From IMG/VR virus record IMGVR_UViG_3300035698_013338, positions 1 to 21,777 of that record: a stretch of DNA of 21,777 nt, one strand, 5' to 3'. This document shows positions 2,341-21,747 of this stretch, piece after piece. The stretch is from a virus. Made by a program: the position numbers and the translations under genes. Below the pieces are notes generated by a model. That model was not told where the DNA came from, made no database searches, and saw nothing but the letters and a program-made list of their open reading frames with translations. Every line of letters starts with the position of its first letter. Position 1 is the first letter of the stretch.

Positions 2341-2752
2341 AAAAAGAAAACGATCACCATTACGAATAGCTAAAGATAAGGCTTGGAGAATTTTTTCTAT
2401 TTACATTAGAAGGCGAGATTCTGATGAGTATGGTCTGGCCACATGTGTGACATGCAAAAGAGTTAAGCCTTGGAAAGAATTGCAAGCTGGCCATTTTATA
2501 GCTGGCAGAAGCAATGCGGTGTTATTCGAAGAGAAGGGAGTACATTCTCAGTGCAGGCAGTGCAATTATAACGAAGGTAATGGGCCGGAGTATTTCTTAT
2601 TTATGGAAAAGACTTATGGTCGCGAAGAGATAGAGCGTCAAATGAGACTGAAGGGAACAATACTAAAGCGCACAGAAGAGGATTACTTAGACCTTATGGC
2701 GAAGTATCAAGCGCTAATAGATGAAATGGAGGAGTATGACCAAGCTTCTTAA
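2312..2752 (+). CDS. ninG: NinG/Rap-family recombination protein
   Basis: A 146-residue basic protein of the lambda NinG (Rap) family. In lambda, Rap is a structure-specific nuclease that promotes recombination at branched DNA. Visible hallmarks: a basic N-terminus, KAWRIFSIYIRRRDSDEYG, a Cys pair C45-V-T-C48, the GHFIAGR segment (H61) with SNAVLF, H78, a second Cys pair C81-R-Q-C84 and a glutamate-rich C-terminal helix. This is the expected order for the HNH-like zinc fold. NinG proteins often run longer at the N-terminus, so this copy is on the short side. Start ATG 2312 has only a weak upstream AAG. Its frame is shared with the upstream RHH-like remnant but separated by TAA 2288. It overlaps the M15 peptidase gene. 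Confidence 0.8.
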   Translation: MEKIAKKKPKKRKRSPLRIAKDKAWRIFSIYIRRRDSDEYGLATCVTCKRVKPWKELQAGHFIAGRSNAVLFEEKGVHSQCRQCNYNEGNGPEYFLFMEKTYGREEIERQMRLKGTILKRTEEDYLDLMAKYQALIDEMEEYDQAS

Positions 2753-3113
2753 AAAATCCGCAGAGGATAATCTTAGCGCGCACCTAAGTCATAATGAGTT
2801 CAGGTGCAAATGTAGTCGCACAGAGTGCCACTTCACTTTAGTGGATGAGCATCTTATCAATTGCTTCGAGAAATTAAGAGCAAGATGGGAAAAGCCTATT
2901 CTTGTTAACTCAGGCTTTAGGTGTCAGGCGCACAATAAGGCAACCAATGGATCAGTGCCGAACAGTCGCCACACCACAGGCGAAGCAATTGATCTAAGAA
3001 AGCCCAGCGATCCAGAGCAAGCGAAACTATTCCAACAATTATGCAAAGATATCTTCCCGCACATCATTCCGTACAAGGGTTTCGTGCATTGTGATCTGGG
3101 GGATAACAACTAA
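2736..3113 (+). CDS. M15-family peptidase, probable endolysin
   Basis: A 125-residue zinc peptidase of the M15 (VanY/DacD-like, peptidase_M15_3) type that cleaves peptidoglycan cross-links or stem peptides. SGFRC at ~59-63 precedes the metal motif: H79 in NSRHTTGEAIDL, D86 seven residues later, and the third ligand H118 in FVHCDL. It has no signal peptide or cell-wall-binding domain, fitting a compact phage endolysin that needs a holin to reach the wall. Start ATG 2736 has GGAGGAG unusually close upstream; ATG 2721 is an in-frame alternative without a site. Extra N-terminal Cys residues (24, 26, 31) are unusual. It lies far from the membrane-protein module at 20910-21747, so the lysis functions appear split. 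Confidence 0.8.
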   Translation: MTKLLKKSAEDNLSAHLSHNEFRCKCSRTECHFTLVDEHLINCFEKLRARWEKPILVNSGFRCQAHNKATNGSVPNSRHTTGEAIDLRKPSDPEQAKLFQQLCKDIFPHIIPYKGFVHCDLGDNN

Positions 3114-10343: not shown

Positions 10344-11303
10344 ATGTTAACGTATACAGAGCTTGACTCAATAACTACAAAACTAATTAAGAAAAAATTA
10401 ACAGAGGGTGTTTTTAAAAATGACAAACTCTTAATGAGATTTAGAGAAAATCAAGAGCTAGAAGATGGTGGGACTAGTATCACATGTCCACTTTATTCTG
10501 TAGATGACACTGGTACTACTGGTGAATTCTATAGCCCTAGAGATTCTCTAAGCTTAGCTGAGTACGATGGTATCACAGCTTCAGAACACCAATGGCGTTA
10601 CATTTACGAAAGTTGTGTAATTTATAAAGCAGACATTGCTAAAAATGGTGGTGACTCAGGTAAAGTTAAACTTGTTTCATCGAAAGTTAAGCAAGCAGAG
10701 CTCGCAATGAAGCAAAGACTTATCAAGGGTATCTTGAGTGATGGTGGTGCGTCTTTAGGTGCTGCCGATACTGATCAGTTTGACGGCCTAGAAGCAATTA
10801 TTGCCTCAAGTGGTTCTTATGGTGGCATCTCTAGTGTTGATTTAGCAACATGGGTTTCTTATGTAGATGATAACTCAGGTAATAATCGTGCCCTTACTCA
10901 AACAATTATGGATAAGGCTTACGATCAAACTGTAGAAGAAGGTCAAGGCGGAGCTACTTTAGGAATTATGGACAAGTCTGTATTTACTAAGTTTAAAGGT
11001 CTTTTAACAGGTCAACAACGTGTTACTCGTGAAGGCACTGTTAGTGGTCAAGGTCATAAAGGTCAGATTATCGTTTATAACGGTATTGATCACATGATCT
11101 GTAATAACATGCCAGCTAACACACTTTTCTACATTGACGAGGAACATGTAAAGCTTCACGTACACCGTGAAAACAATATGAGAAGACAGTCAATTTCTGA
11201 TTTAGAAACTGCTGATGCTCTATTACAGAGAATCTTCTTATACGGAAATATTATCGCTTCTGAGAGAAAGTATCACTCAAGAGTTAATGATATTGCAGTT
11301 TAG
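10344..11303 (+). CDS. Major capsid protein
   Basis: A 319-residue protein with GAGG 7 nt before ATG 10344. Position after the scaffold and a codon choice noticeably smoother than its neighbours (many GGT, GAA, AAA, CTT codons) point to the highly expressed major head protein. The sequence has features of the HK97-fold phage coat group: a helical N-terminus followed by DGGTSITCPLYSVDDTG-type beta-rich E-loop region, a central IKGILSDGG spine and a C-terminal LFYIDEEHVKLHVHRE beta region. A strong intrinsic terminator follows immediately. Confidence 0.85.
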   Translation: MLTYTELDSITTKLIKKKLTEGVFKNDKLLMRFRENQELEDGGTSITCPLYSVDDTGTTGEFYSPRDSLSLAEYDGITASEHQWRYIYESCVIYKADIAKNGGDSGKVKLVSSKVKQAELAMKQRLIKGILSDGGASLGAADTDQFDGLEAIIASSGSYGGISSVDLATWVSYVDDNSGNNRALTQTIMDKAYDQTVEEGQGGATLGIMDKSVFTKFKGLLTGQQRVTREGTVSGQGHKGQIIVYNGIDHMICNNMPANTLFYIDEEHVKLHVHRENNMRRQSISDLETADALLQRIFLYGNIIASERKYHSRVNDIAV

Positions 11304-11304
11304 T

Positions 11305-11328
11305 AAAATGGGGCGAAAGCCCTTTTTT
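11305..11328 (+). terminator. Intrinsic terminator after the major capsid gene
   Basis: GGGC (11311-11314) and GCCC (11319-11322) form a stem capped by a GAAA tetraloop and followed by TTTTTT (11323-11328). A G-U pair and four A-T pairs (11305-11308 with 11325-11328) extend the base. It lies directly after the capsid stop and would reduce transcription of the downstream neck and ejection genes relative to capsid. Confidence 0.88.
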
Positions 11329-11364
11329 AAGTATTAATTTTAAAACTTTAACAGGATGAATAAA

Positions 11365-11880
11365 ATGAAAACAATCTTTTTACTTTTAACTTTAGCGTTT
11401 GGCTTAAATGTCATGGCCTTAGAGTGTAACGTGGGAGCTGCTGTAGATGGTACTGGTGCCTTGAAAGCAGGCTCAGAGTCTAAATGTTTTGACTGGTTTA
11501 AGAATTCAAACGGTGCGGTATTAAATGCTGGTCGCCTTGTATGTCTTGATCTTTCTGACGATGACGGTGCTGGAGTTATATACTGTCCAGCAGTAGCGGC
11601 AGGTGTTCCGGTTGGTATCGTTGCTCCACTTAATGGTGCTAGTTGTGCAGACGGTGCTCAATGTCGTGTACAAGTTTATGGGCTTAATTCAGCAGTGGCT
11701 TTTGATTCTACGAATTCGGTAGCTACAGCAGGTCTATCGGCTTATCTTTCAGAGTCTACAGCAGGATATATTGAAGCAGAAGCTACTGGCACAGTGGCAG
11801 CTACGGATCATCCAATTGGTGTATTTTATGATTCACCTACTGCTAGTGGTGATATTGAGCTTTTTATTAAGCTTAGATAG
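11365..11880 (+). CDS. Exported six-cysteine protein resembling a capsid decoration protein
   Basis: A 171-residue protein. ATG 11365 is chosen because AGGA lies 8 nt upstream; in-frame ATG 11356 overlaps that site. Residues 1-18 form a signal peptide (MKTIFLLLTLAFGLNVMA, then LE), with likely Sec cleavage after Ala18. The mature part is rich in Ala, Gly, Ser and Val, beta-strand-like, with Cys 21, 41, 60, 74, 94 and 100, suitable for disulfides in the periplasm. The GRLVCLDL...GVPVGIV...VQVYGL pattern recalls DUF2190-type head decoration proteins, whose position after the capsid gene it shares. A signal peptide on a decoration protein is unusual. Its TAG overlaps the next GTG. Alternatively it is a secreted host-surface protein. 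Confidence 0.65.
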   Translation: MKTIFLLLTLAFGLNVMALECNVGAAVDGTGALKAGSESKCFDWFKNSNGAVLNAGRLVCLDLSDDDGAGVIYCPAVAAGVPVGIVAPLNGASCADGAQCRVQVYGLNSAVAFDSTNSVATAGLSAYLSESTAGYIEAEATGTVAATDHPIGVFYDSPTASGDIELFIKLR

Positions 11881-13052
11881 TGAATAAATATTTCAAAATC
11901 TTTTGGGGTGTGGCATTAGTGCTGCACCTTTTTGTTTTAAGGTTTACCGAGTTTGCAACTCGGGTTACTGGTGGTCGCATCACTGGGAACATTTATAACT
12001 GGATACAAAAAGACGCTAAGCTATTTGAGAAAATGGAATTAATGCGAGCTGGTAAAAATAGCTTCTTTATCTTTGTTTGCTTATTGTCGTTTATTGCTTT
12101 TAAGGGAAATAAAAACCTTCCTAAAAAAACCCTAATCCCAATTATTTTATTAATGATACTTACTTACTTTAATACCTATGACTTTCTTTCGCCTGCTGTG
12201 TGGGAGCAAAGTTTATTCTTTATGGTGGGACTAGCTTTAATTACTCATTTGTACTCATGTATAGACATGAAAGATGTAGATTTCTACACAAACTGTCTTG
12301 GGTTATCATGCTTACTCGGTTCTCTATATGTTTTTTTAGAAGCATGTGGACTAGTTCCTTATGATGTATATAGCTCATTTTACGGTATTAGCAACTCTTA
12401 CGATGGCTCTATAATAAAAGGGGCATTGAGTAATCCCAATCCTTCAGCGGCTTATATCGCCTTAACAGCACCTTGTTTGATGAAAAGAAAATGGCCAATG
12501 ATTTTTCCTATCGCTGCTCTTTATTTACTGGGCTCCATGATGGGATATCTATCTTTGGTAGGATTCTTTCTTTATTATTTTTATTCTAAACTTTTCACAC
12601 CCGGAACAATTCCTTATTTATTGGCCGTCTTAACTTTATTAATATGCTCAGTTGTTTTTTACACTGAATATCATGGTGGCGTGGACTCTGGAAGATTTTA
12701 TATGTGGGGTGAGGCATTAGTTAAGCTTAATATTAATCCATTATTTGGTGGTGGTCTTGGTTTTGTGTATGACAAATTCCCACCCTTGGCTAATTTGAAT
12801 GGTGCAGTTTTTAGAAGTATGCACAATGAATTGTTAAGCTTGTATTATTCTCATGGTCTAATTGGCTTTGCCCTAGTCGGGTATTTATTAATTGGACCTA
12901 TTAAAAAAGGCGGCACCTTCTTTGCCTCTTTGGTATTTGCATATTTCATTAATAGTTTAGGTAACTTTCCATTCCACATAACTCCACTTTTTACTGTATT
13001 CGCATTTTACTTTGTGTTTTTATTAAAGGAAAGCGAGGGGAATTATGTCTAG
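11880..13052 (+). CDS. O-antigen ligase/polymerase-like (Wzy_C superfamily) membrane protein
   Basis: A 390-residue protein with ~11-12 hydrophobic segments (approximately 5-20, 60-75, 84-98, 108-127, 135-155, 205-261 in several passes, 320-339, 346-382). The superfamily signature is clear: R272 in SGRFYMWGEAL, then P287-L-F-GGGLG (289-294), then H315-N-E-L-L-S-L-Y-Y-S-H-G-L-I-G. This is the Wzy_C periplasmic-loop pattern in WaaL ligases, Wzy polymerases and PglL/PilO O-oligosaccharyltransferases; the Arg and His match residues important in WaaL. It would use undecaprenyl-linked glycans in the inner membrane. GTG 11880 overlaps the upstream stop (TAGTG), and its end overlaps the next neck gene, so it is inside the structural operon. 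The acceptor (lipid A, glycan chain or protein) is not shown. Confidence 0.75.
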   Translation: MNKYFKIFWGVALVLHLFVLRFTEFATRVTGGRITGNIYNWIQKDAKLFEKMELMRAGKNSFFIFVCLLSFIAFKGNKNLPKKTLIPIILLMILTYFNTYDFLSPAVWEQSLFFMVGLALITHLYSCIDMKDVDFYTNCLGLSCLLGSLYVFLEACGLVPYDVYSSFYGISNSYDGSIIKGALSNPNPSAAYIALTAPCLMKRKWPMIFPIAALYLLGSMMGYLSLVGFFLYYFYSKLFTPGTIPYLLAVLTLLICSVVFYTEYHGGVDSGRFYMWGEALVKLNINPLFGGGLGFVYDKFPPLANLNGAVFRSMHNELLSLYYSHGLIGFALVGYLLIGPIKKGGTFFASLVFAYFINSLGNFPFHITPLFTVFAFYFVFLLKESEGNYV

Positions 13053-14097
13053 AGTTTGGAATGGTAAAGCATTAGTGGATGAGCTTGCCGTTAGGCTTTG
13101 GGATACCTCTACGGCCAATAAAAATAGAATCATTATATGGCTTAACGAGATTCAAGACGATCTTACTAGTGAAATCCCTTTAGATTATTTTAAATTCAGA
13201 ATCAAAAAATTACTTCCTACGCTTCAAGATGAAATGAATCTAAATCCTGAGACTTCGGTGGCACCAACGGTTTCAGTCTCGTCTGGTGGAAGTTTAACAG
13301 AAAATAATATCTATAAGTTAACAGTCACTTTTTTAATTTGGGATGGTGACACAAAAAGATATATCGAGTCAGAGCAAGGTGCATATAGTGCCAATGTTAC
13401 AGCTACATCCTCTGTTAAAACAATTGATGTAAGCGCGATACCGCTTTACTCAGGCGATACCAGTTACGAGCCATCTAGTATTTATAGAAGAATTTATATG
13501 GCCGTATCCACAGATGTAGGCATTACCTTTAGTGAACCCTTCTTTTCTCAAGATATAGAAGATAACACAACCACGGTAGCGACAATTACTACCGAGACAA
13601 CAAGCACAATCACGCCACCTAGTGACACCGAAGTAGATCAGATAAGCAGCGATAATCCTTTCTTTATATCTTCTGGCAAGTATTTAGAAAGAGTTGATAT
13701 GGCCAAGACTCGTAGAAGTAACCCACAGTATTCGACAAGTGCCACACCTTATTTTTACGACTACATCGGACAAGATAGGATTAGCCTTTATCCTAAGTTA
13801 TCAAGCACTGCTACTGATGCTCAAAGAACATTGTCTTATTATGTTTTTAGAAGGCCCCACGAAGTTTTTTATAATGTTGATAGAGATATAGATTTGCCTA
13901 TAACTTTTAAGAAAGCACTTATTGAGGGTGTTACGTGGAAGGCTTACGTATTTAGAGATAGGGACGGTCAAGAAAGTAAGGCCGCTAATTATGAGCAGTT
14001 TAAAAAGCAAGTACTAACTAAAGCAACAAGACAGCGAAATAGACCATCTTCTGTAAGGGATGTTACAGGAGATACATGGGGCTATACCGTACAGTAA
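13045..14097 (+). CDS. Head-tail adaptor-like neck protein with inserted Ig-like domain
   Basis: A 350-residue protein with GAGGGG just before ATG 13045. The N-terminal ~60 residues are helical (WNGKALVDELAVRLWD, IIWLNEIQDDL), as in gp4/gp6-type adaptors that bind the portal. The C-terminal helix KALIEGVTWKAYVFRDRDG and following continues that fold. Between them, residues ~73-194 are a Thr/Ser-rich beta domain (APTVSVSS to TPPSD) which is repeated in the next protein. The adaptor role is inferred from position and helical ends; the inserted domain is seen directly. It overlaps the upstream ligase-like gene by 8 nt. Confidence 0.65.
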   Translation: MSRVWNGKALVDELAVRLWDTSTANKNRIIIWLNEIQDDLTSEIPLDYFKFRIKKLLPTLQDEMNLNPETSVAPTVSVSSGGSLTENNIYKLTVTFLIWDGDTKRYIESEQGAYSANVTATSSVKTIDVSAIPLYSGDTSYEPSSIYRRIYMAVSTDVGITFSEPFFSQDIEDNTTTVATITTETTSTITPPSDTEVDQISSDNPFFISSGKYLERVDMAKTRRSNPQYSTSATPYFYDYIGQDRISLYPKLSSTATDAQRTLSYYVFRRPHEVFYNVDRDIDLPITFKKALIEGVTWKAYVFRDRDGQESKAANYEQFKKQVLTKATRQRNRPSSVRDVTGDTWGYTVQ

Positions 14098-14107
14098 AGG
14101 GAGTTAG

Positions 14108-16003
14108 ATGCCTTTAAGAAAAAGAGCTTCTACCAAGTGGAAAAACTTTAATATGCCTATATCTTATAAGGCACAGGCGCAAGATCGCATGAAAGATGCA
14201 CGTAACGTGTGTACAATTCAAGACTTATTGGAAACAAGACACGGTATTTCTAGATGGAACTCTGTAGCTTTTTCAGATGCTCCAAAGTCTATAAGTTACT
14301 TTAAAGATAATTCAAATAATAGTTACATACTAGCAAAAGACGAGACTACTCTATATAAAGCAAACGAATCGGGTGCACATACTTCTGTTAAAACAGGTCT
14401 AACGTCTACAACAAAACACAGAGGCGTTACGTTTAACAATAGACACATAGTAGCGATTGGGAGCGATGGTTTATTCTCTTACGATGGGACTATTTTTACA
14501 CAACTAGGTCAAAATGTACCAGCGGCGCCAACGGTTGCGGCAAGTGGCTCTGGTAATACTTTAGCGGCCGGTACTTATCAGGTGGCGATAACATTTTACT
14601 CATCTACATACGGATATGAAACAAATCAAGGAACCGCAAGTTCTAATGTGGTTGTGGCAAGTGCCGAACAAATAGATGTTTCAAATATTCCAAGCACCGC
14701 AGATAATGGCTTTATTGATAAGGTTAGAATTTACGTTAAAAACGTAAGCACTAGTGGTGTCTTTTTATTTTGGGCCGAACTAGACTTGGGAGTGACTACA
14801 GATACTATTGATGCCGATTCAACATCTACACAAACCCCACCAAATAAAAATGCAAAGCCGATTGCTGGCGGTGGGAAATACTTGGCGGTATATGGTCAAT
14901 CAATTACTTATTCTGGTAATTCGACATTTCCTAGCGATGTTTTCATCTCAGAACCATTTTTGCCAGATGCTTTTGATAGTACAGATACATCTAAGACTTT
15001 TAATGTTGCCGGCAATGGCCCATTAACTGGACACGCTGTGGGTTATTTTAATGGAGACTTTCAAAACCCATATATAGTGGCCTTTAAAAAAAGACATATC
15101 GAACTATTTACAGAGGCCAGTGGTAGTCCGCAACAAGTCGTTATTTCCAGTGAGCTTGGTTGTATCTCACATGACACAATTGAAGTTATAAATGGTGATG
15201 TTTTTTTCATGTCGGCAAAGGGTTGGCACGCGATAAGCAATGGAAAGTTAATAAAAACTAAAGATAAGAATGATTCTATAGATAATGGAGATATTAACGA
15301 CATTTTCACTAGATCAGGATTTACTTTTGAATTAAATAAAAGTGATTTTTCTAATTTCTTTTCTATATATTACCCAACACTAAATCAATATCTAACATTT
15401 GTTTCGGAAGGTGCTAATAATTCTATTTATAAGGCATATAATTTTGAGTTCGAAATAGGTGGGTTTAGAACTTACGATTTTCGGGTATTTTTCATGGGCG
15501 CGACCATAGGTGAAGACTCTTCTGGTGAGGAAGTTGTTTATCTCGCTGGTGAAAATGGCTACATATATAAGCATAGTATCAAAGAAGCAAAGGGCACCGA
15601 TGTTGATAGGGATGGTGCAGAGGTCGCAATAAATGCCTTTGCGCAACTTTATTGGAAGGGAGGTAACGATATGGATGCCTCTTATAACTTCGGCCCATTT
15701 CTAGTTAGGGCGCTAGCGCAAGACAACCCCATCATAGTTAAGTATTTCTTAGATTATTCACAGCAAGATCCTGTGGATCTGAGTTATGACTTCAGCGACA
15801 CAGAAACAGGCTTTATTCTTGATGTCGATAGTTTAGATGTTGGGATACTAGGAGATGGGCGGACGATCGTACGTTACACTGGTGAGATACTTAAAAGCGG
15901 TCAATCATTATTAATAGGATTTTATAAATCTGACATGGGCGAAAGTATGGCCCTTATTGAAGGTCAGTTGGATATACAAAAAAACGGCAACCCGGCAGGA
16001 TAA
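14108..16003 (+). CDS. Large neck/tail beta-rich protein (P22 gp10-like position)
   Basis: A 631-residue protein with AAAGGGAG 5 nt before ATG 14108. Mostly beta strands in propeller-like repeats: ISYFKDNSNNSYILAKDETT, FNNRHIVAIGSDGLFSYDG, VFFMSAKGWHAISNGK and VVYLAGENGYIYKHS each read as a blade-type strand pattern. Residues ~140-250 carry an Ig-like insert (APTVAASG to TQTPPN, then GGGKYLA) homologous to the one in the previous protein. By gene order it corresponds to tail-stabilising proteins such as P22 gp10, which close the portal channel. Homology to gp10 itself is not established. Confidence 0.6.
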   Translation: MPLRKRASTKWKNFNMPISYKAQAQDRMKDARNVCTIQDLLETRHGISRWNSVAFSDAPKSISYFKDNSNNSYILAKDETTLYKANESGAHTSVKTGLTSTTKHRGVTFNNRHIVAIGSDGLFSYDGTIFTQLGQNVPAAPTVAASGSGNTLAAGTYQVAITFYSSTYGYETNQGTASSNVVVASAEQIDVSNIPSTADNGFIDKVRIYVKNVSTSGVFLFWAELDLGVTTDTIDADSTSTQTPPNKNAKPIAGGGKYLAVYGQSITYSGNSTFPSDVFISEPFLPDAFDSTDTSKTFNVAGNGPLTGHAVGYFNGDFQNPYIVAFKKRHIELFTEASGSPQQVVISSELGCISHDTIEVINGDVFFMSAKGWHAISNGKLIKTKDKNDSIDNGDINDIFTRSGFTFELNKSDFSNFFSIYYPTLNQYLTFVSEGANNSIYKAYNFEFEIGGFRTYDFRVFFMGATIGEDSSGEEVVYLAGENGYIYKHSIKEAKGTDVDRDGAEVAINAFAQLYWKGGNDMDASYNFGPFLVRALAQDNPIIVKYFLDYSQQDPVDLSYDFSDTETGFILDVDSLDVGILGDGRTIVRYTGEILKSGQSLLIGFYKSDMGESMALIEGQLDIQKNGNPAG

Positions 16004-16005
16004 AT

Positions 16006-17013
16006 ATGAGAAATATAATTATAAATACTTTATTAGCTTTTTTTGTGTTCGCACTTGCTGGATACTTTATTGATGCCCAAGCAGCTACCTGTACGAGTAT
16101 TTCGAGAACTAATAATTCAGCAAACTCGGTTTTAAAATCAACTAAGCTAAATTTAGATTTTAACACTGCCTATACCGCTATTAATAACTTTGATGGTGGT
16201 TGTGTTACTGATGGGACTTTAGAAATAAGCTCTACAGATTCGAGTTGGGATAACTTAAAAAACTATCTTCAAGCTGGGTGTAAGGTTTCATATTCTAACG
16301 CTTCGACAGTATCTATAAGCAAATGTTATGTGGCGGTTAATGGAAACTTTGTTGCTAAATCAACCGCAACAAGTGCGGCTTTTGGGTGTACTAATTGCTC
16401 ATCTGAAGCCGTATCAACTAATTACTATGTTTACGCGGCAAATGGCTCAGCTGGCTCCACATTAACACCATTGATTTTAACGGATGCACCGAACGCAGAT
16501 GGTTACGATGCTTCTAATAATAAGGTTCTAGCTAGGTTTTATAATAATTCAACTAGTGACTTGGACCAATATTCAATAGAGCAATGGAGTGTAAATAAAT
16601 TTATACCGCAGACAATGGGTTGGACGGCTTATACGCCATCTAGCTACGCAGGACTAGGCACACCATCTTCTGTTAATTTTTTCTGGAAACGTGGGGCTGG
16701 AAATACAATTGAAATCATAGGTGGTTTAGACACGGGTACAGTCTCGGCAACAACAGCAGAAATTGCGCTACCTAATAACTACACAGTAAAATCAGGATTG
16801 GGACAGACTATGGTTGTAGGTGACCTCGGGAGAGGGTCAGGGTCAGTTTCACGCTTTATATATGTTGTGGTGGTTTCTGATGAATCTGTTATTAAATTTA
16901 CAAATCAAAACACTGGAGCAGAAGTTCCAATTGTCGGAAACGCACTGGCATCGAATAGTGAAGGTCTTGCCATAAATGCAATTATTCCAGTAAATGAAAT
17001 AGAGGTAGACTAA
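16006..17013 (+). CDS. Signal-peptide-bearing fibre-like (receptor-binding) protein
   Basis: A 335-residue protein with AGGA 5 nt before ATG 16006. Residues 1-26 form a Sec signal peptide (IIINTLLAFFVFALAG core, cleavage after AQA). The mature N-terminal half holds six Cys (29, 66, 92, 107, 128, 131). The middle (DAPNADGYDASNNKVLARFY) and C-terminus (MGWTAYTPSSYAGLG, VNFFWKRGAGNTIEIIGG, EIALPNNY) match patterns common in phage tail fibres and collar proteins: a Trp start, an F-x-W-x-R-x-G strand pair and an LP turn, probably a trimeric C1q-like head. Its position between neck and ejection genes fits a tail spike/fibre. Export by Sec would be exceptional for a virion protein. Its stop and the next start overlap (TAATG). 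Confidence 0.6.
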   Translation: MRNIIINTLLAFFVFALAGYFIDAQAATCTSISRTNNSANSVLKSTKLNLDFNTAYTAINNFDGGCVTDGTLEISSTDSSWDNLKNYLQAGCKVSYSNASTVSISKCYVAVNGNFVAKSTATSAAFGCTNCSSEAVSTNYYVYAANGSAGSTLTPLILTDAPNADGYDASNNKVLARFYNNSTSDLDQYSIEQWSVNKFIPQTMGWTAYTPSSYAGLGTPSSVNFFWKRGAGNTIEIIGGLDTGTVSATTAEIALPNNYTVKSGLGQTMVVGDLGRGSGSVSRFIYVVVVSDESVIKFTNQNTGAEVPIVGNALASNSEGLAINAIIPVNEIEVD

Positions 17014-20909: not shown

Positions 20910-21119
20910 ATGAAAGAAAATGTCCACAATATAATTTTAGGAGTTGTTGGAACCCTTGCTTTGATTATATTTAACGATATGCGAACTAATCTAGGTAGTC
21001 TCGCTAAAAATGTTCAAGAGTTAAATGGAAAAATAGTGAAAGTAATATCTGATCAAGGTTGGCATAAAAAGCAGCTTGATAGGCATGATGCGAGAATTAC
21101 AAAACTAGAAAACTATTAA
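20910..21119 (+). CDS. Small membrane protein with coiled-coil tail (holin or inner-spanin candidate)
   Basis: A 69-residue protein; AAGGT lies ~8 nt before ATG 20910. Residues 7-21 (IILGVVGTLALIIF) are a single transmembrane helix; residues ~28-66 form an amphipathic, probably coiled-coil helix. An N-terminal anchor plus helical domain is the layout of inner-membrane spanins (Rz), though short, and a reversed version of XhlA-type holin partners. First gene of the small end module with a second membrane protein and a lipoprotein, supporting a lysis role. The exact role is undecided. Confidence 0.55.
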   Translation: MKENVHNIILGVVGTLALIIFNDMRTNLGSLAKNVQELNGKIVKVISDQGWHKKQLDRHDARITKLENY

Positions 21120-21129
21120 GGGAGTCAGT

Positions 21130-21312
21130 ATGACAAAGAAAAAACCATGGCTATCTAAAACACTTATTATTAACTTTATTATGGCACTAATTGCTATTAC
21201 TGGATTAACTGAAAAGGTCAGCATCACAAACGACCAATTAGTCATGGCCCTTACCGGTGTGAATATTATTTTACGTTTAGTTACTAAAGATAAAATAGGT
21301 TTAGAAGCTTGA
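21130..21312 (+). CDS. Small two-helix membrane protein (putative holin)
   Basis: A 60-residue protein with GGGAG about 6 nt before ATG 21130. It has the common phage pattern K-K-P-W-L-S-K-T-L followed by a hydrophobic helix (~11-26), a short loop, a second helix (~38-50) and a basic tail ending in RLVTKDKIG. Many tailed phages carry such a protein near lysis genes and it is often annotated as a holin, which would let the M15 endopeptidase reach the cell wall. Its TGA overlaps the next ATG. The function is inferred from architecture and neighbours. Confidence 0.6.
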   Translation: MTKKKPWLSKTLIINFIMALIAITGLTEKVSITNDQLVMALTGVNIILRLVTKDKIGLEA

Positions 21313-21527
21313 TGGCAACAATTATGACCTTCTTACGAGCACTGCCTGAAATGGTCAGTGCCGTTAGGGAGTTGAATAATTCAATTATAAGTCTTAGAAA
21401 TAGTAAGATTGATTCTGATAATGCTTTATATAAAAAAGAATTAAATCTATTAATTGCTAGACTAGAAAATAGTAAAGGAGATGTTGATGAAGTATCAGAT
21501 ATTGTGCGTCGTCTTAACTCTTTGTAG
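21312..21527 (+). CDS. Small hypothetical helical protein
   Basis: A 71-residue protein beginning at ATG 21312, overlapping the previous stop (TGATG). Only a weak hydrophobic segment (~3-18) is present, followed by charged helices rich in Ser, Asn and Arg. The lipoprotein gene starts inside its 3' end in another frame, an arrangement like overlapping Rz/Rz1 spanin pairs, but the lack of a strong N-terminal anchor argues against a regular inner spanin. Function unknown. Confidence 0.55.
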   Translation: MATIMTFLRALPEMVSAVRELNNSIISLRNSKIDSDNALYKKELNLLIARLENSKGDVDEVSDIVRRLNSL

Positions 21528-21747
21528 TTGTGAATCTTTGCCACCGCCAAAAACAGAGCTATGTGGTGGTACGAGTATCGGTAATCTAGCTTGTAATGAC
21601 CAAAGAAGAGATAATCAAGACTATACCAGAGAGCTTAGAAAAGGCGATCTCTGTACAAACTCAAAAGATTTTGAACGCATGAGAGGTTATTGCTCAGACC
21701 TTAGGGTAGAACTCTTAAAGTGTAGAAATAATAAATCAACTAAATAG
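21487..21747 (+). CDS. Cysteine-rich lipoprotein (outer-spanin-like)
   Basis: An 86-residue protein. ATG 21487 lies 6 nt after AAAGGAG; ATG 21481 is too close to that site. The N-terminus (MKYQILCVVLTLCSC) is a lipoprotein signal with lipobox L-C-S-C15, followed by ESLPPPK, a Pro-rich start reminiscent of Rz1 outer spanins. It begins inside the preceding gene, as Rz1 does. Unlike Rz1, the mature part has five more Cys (~25, 36, 55, 68, 78), suggesting disulfides, and is only briefly Pro-rich. An outer-membrane lysis partner is most likely; a superinfection-exclusion lipoprotein is the main alternative. Confidence 0.6.
   Translation: MKYQILCVVLTLCSCESLPPPKTELCGGTSIGNLACNDQRRDNQDYTRELRKGDLCTNSKDFERMRGYCSDLRVELLKCRNNKSTK

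Follow-up and report, generated by a model that had tools for sequence, protein, structure and literature searches.

A conserved Wzy_C-type gene in the head-gene block of uncultivated phages follows a cement gene with a predicted signal peptide

The closest described relatives of the gene reported here are the O-antigen ligase WaaL (E. coli; C. metallidurans, PDB 7tpg and 7tpj; GT-C type) and the protein O-oligosaccharyltransferases PglL, PilO (TfpO) and PglS, which belong to the same superfamily. In E. coli WaaL, residues R215, R288 and H338 are important and are conserved in PglL (PMC3643930), and the genes of PglL/PilO enzymes commonly adjoin the gene of an exported substrate (PMC3643930), as for pilin/PilO and ComP/PglL (PMC3643930; PMC12800693). 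Phages also encode Wzy_C-type proteins, such as the seroconversion polymerases Wzy-beta of D3 and VG_p25 of VarioGold (phrog_19842), and the known ones alter host O-antigen (PMC4815439); an A. baumannii prophage likewise encodes Wzy2Ph, a 392-aa Wzy_C protein, and prophage Wzy proteins change capsules of this species (PMC13228068). Glycosyltransferases of mycobacteriophages (e.g., Maravista) have additionally been suggested to glycosylate capsid (PMC11256854).

We analyzed a 21,777-nucleotide stretch of viral DNA (hereafter the window), whose plus strand carries at 11880-13052 a gene of 390 codons, with a GTG start, for a polytopic membrane protein resembling O-antigen ligases. The protein matches Pfam PF04932 (Wzy_C) across residues 207-333 (E = 4.9e-10; 39.8 bits against a gathering score of 31.7), which is the sole Pfam family it matches and bears out the initial annotation, where a polytopic Wzy_C-type protein had been read from the sequence. 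The overlaps noted there also hold, with the stop codon of the preceding cement gene shared in TAGTG and 8 nt (13045-13052) shared with the SU10-adaptor-like neck gene that follows. A crude hydropathy scan marked seven hydrophobic segments, and our reading of hydrophobic segments and Lys/Arg placement suits about 12 membrane spans with the loop between R272 and H315 outside, hydrophobicity and positive charges placing this Arg/His loop on the putative periplasmic side. AF2 models, built from one sequence or from seven viral Wzy_C sequences, reached a pLDDT of about 40, below usable confidence. We rejected an alternative start at M52, located 3' of a hairpin discussed below, because the preceding segment aligns with the N-terminal segment of homologues.

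Searches with this protein gave no match in PHROGs, nothing relevant in NCBIfam or by phmmer against PDB, and nothing useful among viral contigs; a plasmid search returned one weak match, a sphingomonad polysaccharide-locus protein. Among isolate phages the window protein found no match and two further family members found no useful one, and nothing useful came from searching viral contigs with alignment A4, or genome contigs with A4 and a capsid alignment.

The surrounding plus-strand genes form a head-gene block. A major capsid protein (10344-11303; SU10_MCP PF17236, 36.5 bits; phrog_9953, 4.3e-31 in PHROGs) is preceded by a TerL gene, a P22-like portal gene and a scaffold-like gene, and the Wzy_C gene is followed by a neck/adaptor protein (13045-14097; SU10_adaptor PF24175, 37.9 bits) and a head-closure-like protein (14108-16003; phrog_8040 in PHROGs). 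Among annotated isolate phages, the portal and head-closure-like proteins found no match and the capsid protein found one marginal match. Elsewhere in the window, the frame at 44-478 opens with a long Gln/Gly/His/Asp repeat (GQGQGHGQ...), probably low-complexity DNA at the contig end, and the genes at 2721-3113, 20910-21119, 21130-21312 and 21481-21747 give the impression, by sequence, of a likely lysis set (an M15-type peptidase, two small membrane proteins of holin-like type and an outer-spanin-like lipoprotein).

Using the head-closure-like protein as a query, we found 23 loci, among which 14 distinct uncultivated phage contigs besides the window (L056, L057, L058, L059 (= L060), L062, L063, L065 (= L071), L067, L068, L069, L070, L072, L073 and L076) carry a homologue at the same place, with the cement gene upstream and the neck gene downstream. 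Judging by their gene maps, these homologues are polytopic proteins of 357-426 aa, and their median identity is 23%. PF04932 is matched at E<=1 by 14 of the 15 family members (alignment A12), with a best value of 2e-13, and a profile comparison (hhalign) of the family with bacterial O-antigen ligase family proteins gave 96.6%; the same comparison with E. coli WaaL alone gave an uninformative 16%. Of the two further comparisons put forward in the initial annotation, that with PglL_A (PF15864) matched none of the 15 homologues at E<=1, and, toward that with WaaL structures, a search of PDB sequences with the family profile returned C. metallidurans WaaL 7tpg at the top, a weak match (E = 0.25) aligned across the Arg-His region.

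Protein distances of the enzyme track those of the head-closure-like protein (Mantel r = 0.85) and of the cement protein (0.80), and dN/dS is 0.055 in L063/L065, the only close pair that could be scored. Synteny, distance correlation and dN/dS together indicate that the Wzy_C family is old in these phages, largely vertical in descent and under purifying selection. The gene is missing in L002, L003, L007, L050, L074 and L075, some of which are fragments, and in L002 and L003, the closest relatives by capsid (82-83% identical), a terminator and short spacer take its place. Absence from these sites would suit a moron carried neutrally by a single phage where its intergenic DNA tolerates insertion, but homologues at this position in 14 additional contigs, all distinct, together with agreement with phage phylogeny and purifying selection, make this very improbable. 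A one-off insertion, suggested by the absence of the gene in L002 and L003 and of PF04932 matches in the relatives found before the head-closure-like protein scan, was rejected on the results of that scan. Gene predictions and profile matches show that the Wzy_C gene is conserved and syntenic within the head-gene block of these uncultivated phages, which have an SU10-type capsid and adaptor and a P22-like portal.

Several relatives differ from the window in local detail. Most of them carry an extra gene of ~80-110 aa, absent from the window, between the Wzy_C and neck genes or between the cement and Wzy_C genes (L063:696-941, L065:5659-5904, L058:7518-7799 and others), and in L056 (5883-8000) the neck gene is enlarged to 705 aa through an inserted segment. 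We also observed an independent Wzy_C gene (43.2 bits) in L049 (5000-6390, +), a contig of an SU10-type phage with 63% GC, where it lies between the scaffold and portal genes on the opposite strand.

Six residues are invariant across the 15 same-locus homologues (R272, W276, G290, G292, H315 and G326), and G181, S219, R272, W276, G290, G292, H315 and G326 are common to the A12 alignment. R272 (codon 12693-12695, +) is the putative equivalent of WaaL R288/PglL R298, aligned with the 7tpg WaaL in a weak profile match, and H315 (codon 12822-12824, +) is that of WaaL H338/PglL H349, invariant also in 11 aligned Wzy_C proteins; both positions had been singled out in the initial annotation, and both are borne out by their invariance. 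We also aligned the window protein with ten other Wzy_C proteins, E. coli WaaL and D3 Wzy-beta among them; H315 and G326 do not vary in this set, R272 and N316 hardly vary, and WaaL's own Arg is out of register with R272. The resemblance to WaaL thus comprises the Wzy_C profile, the R288/H338 equivalents and a long loop between hydrophobic segments that bears both the Arg and the His.

The window family differs from WaaL in being phage-encoded, in a head-gene block and not an LPS locus, and in the residue at the position of WaaL R215/PglL R224. The ten other Wzy_C proteins all have Arg here, whereas the window protein has M220 (codon 12537-12539, +) and the other 14 homologues have A, S or T, and since the Arg is missing in 15/15, catalysis is not certain. 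The missing Arg could reflect lost activity or changed specificity, either of which is possible. A non-catalytic or altered Wzy_C protein might bind lipid-linked glycan or the host's WaaL/Wzy and so block host glycan assembly during infection, an explanation in line with the family-wide replacement of the Arg, with the Val found by alignment at the R215 position of the unrelated L049 protein, and with the low amounts suggested by expression behind a terminator. We nevertheless regard it as rather unlikely, as the invariance of R272, W276, H315 and the G-x-G motif over very divergent members fits retained chemistry better.

The gene directly upstream (11356-11880, +) encodes a cement/decoration-type protein with a predicted Sec signal peptide (about residues 1-21) and 6 mature Cys. 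Like Phage_cement_2 (PF09956), it lies just after the capsid gene, and weak profile matches to PF09956 occur in part of its family (A13, n=17), namely in 5/17 members with a best value of 3.2e-5, the window member having no match; phrog_122 (head decoration) is matched by 4/17. The window-group cement departs from Phage_cement_2 in its signal peptide and in its even, pairwise-varying Cys, and no signal peptide was visible by eye in the outgroup cement of L004. By a simple heuristic rule, used in place of SignalP, a signal peptide is predicted in 17/17 cement proteins vs. 0/10 cytosolic-type phage proteins of the window, though the rule also flags true membrane proteins and is thus not specific alone. 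Mature cement Cys number 2, 4 or 6 in 17/17, a parity count whose independence is overstated because the relatives are mutually related, and within columns 105/123 and 115/121 the two Cys of each pair are jointly present or jointly absent. Capsid, neck and head-closure proteins have few Cys, in mixed counts. The cement Cys vary as if they were disulphides gained and lost as pairs and formed after export, to judge from the alignment.

All 15 enzyme contigs carry the signal-peptide cement upstream of the enzyme, directly adjacent or overlapping in 12 and separated by one ~80-aa gene in 3. Across the 21 distinct contigs that cover the locus, cement and enzyme occur together in 15, cement alone in 2, neither in 4 and enzyme alone in 0 (Fisher p = 0.0025, with kinship ignored, so that the mutual relatedness of these contigs makes the co-occurrence look more independent than it is). 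Exported-type cement without the enzyme in L002 and L003 indicates that cement does not need the enzyme. We found nothing on point in the literature concerning exported or glycosylated cement.

Proximity to an exported-type protein gene is a likeness to PglL/PilO systems, the genes here even overlapping; the window family differs from these in having no PglL_A match and a cement-type rather than pilin neighbor, which is here a candidate substrate. D3 Wzy-beta and VarioGold VG_p25 share with the window protein their phage origin, Wzy_C type, similar length and Arg/His motifs, but they retain the conserved Arg and are themselves accessory genes, and phrog_19842 is matched by D3-like proteins and not by the window protein. 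(The category of phrog_19842, 'DNA, RNA and nucleotide metabolism, polymerase', looks like a mislabelling of an O-antigen polymerase.) The D3 gene is encoded on the minus strand, flanked by tail and endolysin genes, and the VarioGold gene on the opposite strand beside spanins, in contrast to the head/neck block of the window. The view in the initial annotation that a locus between capsid and neck genes is unlike usual phage cargo is thus upheld as regards place relative to D3 and VarioGold, but not as regards cargo of a single phage, given that the gene belongs to a whole syntenic group. From the sequences, the present family is distinct from the D3, VarioGold and prophage Wzy cases in place, conservation, sequence and the missing Arg.

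These comparisons bear on the possibility that the enzyme acts late on the host surface, polymerizing or ligating the host's O-antigen or capsule through an altered linkage, which would keep progeny from sticking to debris and would exclude superinfecting phages, as with D3 Wzy-beta and prophage Wzy. Known phage Wzy_C proteins do act in this manner (PMC4815439; A. baumannii Wzy2Ph, PMC13228068), the high divergence of the family fits ever-changing host glycans, and a second, unrelated Wzy_C gene lies within the L049 head-gene block. We consider this explanation possible but less likely than the one favored below, in that the enzyme is fixed behind exported-type cement and absent in contigs without cement, the locus showed no gene for a depolymerase, an acetylase or a polymerase inhibitor, and the gene is not on a separate transcription unit, unlike those of D3 or VarioGold.

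A second exported-type protein is predicted further downstream, where the gene at 16006-17013 (+) encodes a fibre-like protein with a predicted Sec signal peptide and 6 mature Cys; the 'fibre' label is provisional, being drawn from position and sequence pattern with no family match. Homologues occur in L003, L007, L050 and L056-L076, and the heuristic assigns a signal peptide to 16/18, inspection by eye to the remaining 2. With a fixed cut, 15/18 have an even number of mature Cys, rising to 17/18 by eye with the cut at likely cleavage sites. The fibre-like proteins also show an (A/G)TC-type motif after the signal peptide and, in most members, six conserved Cys, a combination uncommon among structural genes of tailed phages.

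Inside codons 9-17 of the Wzy_C gene we identified a terminator-like hairpin (11905-11930, +) of 11 pairs and -14.5 kcal/mol, followed by a T run. Another terminator-like hairpin with a T run follows the capsid gene (11310-11323, +), with similar ones after the capsid gene in L002, L003, L007 and L050; a terminator after the capsid gene is also found in T7. The nested hairpin has a counterpart in 12/12 homologues that directly follow cement, is absent in L063, L065 and L067, where another small gene separates the cement and Wzy_C genes, and has weak T runs in L056, L068 and L073. Its region encodes a W-G...L-P-like segment, with stem sequences that vary while pairing is kept. Relative to synonymous-codon shuffles the hairpins gave p <= 0.008 in 11 cases and 0.054 in one (about 2e-16 combined), values that depend on the choice, made after inspection, to anchor the hairpin region on the G run. 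In enzyme-free relatives, hairpins are instead found in the spacer after cement or capsid. The spacer of the close enzyme-free relatives holds a shared element as well (L002:8360-8560, L003:11560-11690, L050:5700-5760), consisting of about TTTCTTGCCAT plus flanks, with TGGCCCTTG/GGGCCTCCAAA in two.

With a G+C-rich stem, a T run and predicted stability beyond coding constraint, the nested hairpin has the sequence features of an intrinsic terminator, and we read it as a probable terminator that ends the plentiful capsid-cement transcript and has been kept within the gene that follows. A terminator-like hairpin in the first codons implies that the enzyme is probably made by read-through, in lower amounts than capsid and cement. 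The earlier proposal that the enzyme is made together with virion proteins accordingly needs this qualification.

We tentatively favor, at somewhat short of even likelihood, an explanation in which a WaaL/PglL-like transferase moves a lipid-linked glycan of the host onto a phage protein that is exported, most likely the cement. Cement/enzyme co-occurrence, overlapping genes and the neighbor precedent of pilin/PilO and ComP/PglL favor an exported phage protein above other candidate acceptors. The suggestion in the initial annotation of a virion or exported protein as acceptor gains indirect support from the cement signal peptide (17/17) and the even, pairwise-varying cement Cys. Most capsid and cement transcripts would end at the nested hairpin, and a small amount of enzyme would come from read-through, possibly with ribosomes restarting at the cement stop codon. 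This enzyme would be an inner-membrane protein with R272 and H315 on the periplasmic face; it would take host glycan from undecaprenyl pyrophosphate and transfer it to the acceptor, the likeliest being the exported, disulphide-bonded cement from the gene just upstream, or else the fibre. Modified proteins would then join virions at cell lysis, under the assumption that exported proteins reach the virion. Mycobacteriophage capsid glycosylation offers a likeness in that phage genes are proposed to put sugar on virion proteins; those glycosyltransferases are not known to belong to the membrane Wzy_C proteins, nor to use exported virion proteins as acceptors.

Virion assembly in tailed phages is generally taken to occur in the cytoplasm. 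The fixed place of the enzyme behind an exported-type cement suggests that these phages may finish, and perhaps sugar-coat, part of their shell outside it. In the fuller, more speculative form of this idea, to which we give a minor share of belief, part of the virion would be made outside the cytoplasm, with cement and fibre exported by Sec and disulphide-bonded, cement (or fibre) glycosylated by a dedicated Wzy_C-type transferase, and these proteins coating virions at lysis. More generally, our results add to the Wzy_C family a syntenic phage branch that lacks an Arg regarded as important for function, and provide an example of a terminator-like hairpin kept within coding sequence. If the proposal is true, the conserved signal peptides and disulphide signatures of coat and fibre, together with a lipid-linked-glycan transferase fixed in the head-gene block, would imply either that some phages complete virion proteins with the help of the host envelope or that virion-like proteins also serve at the cell surface.
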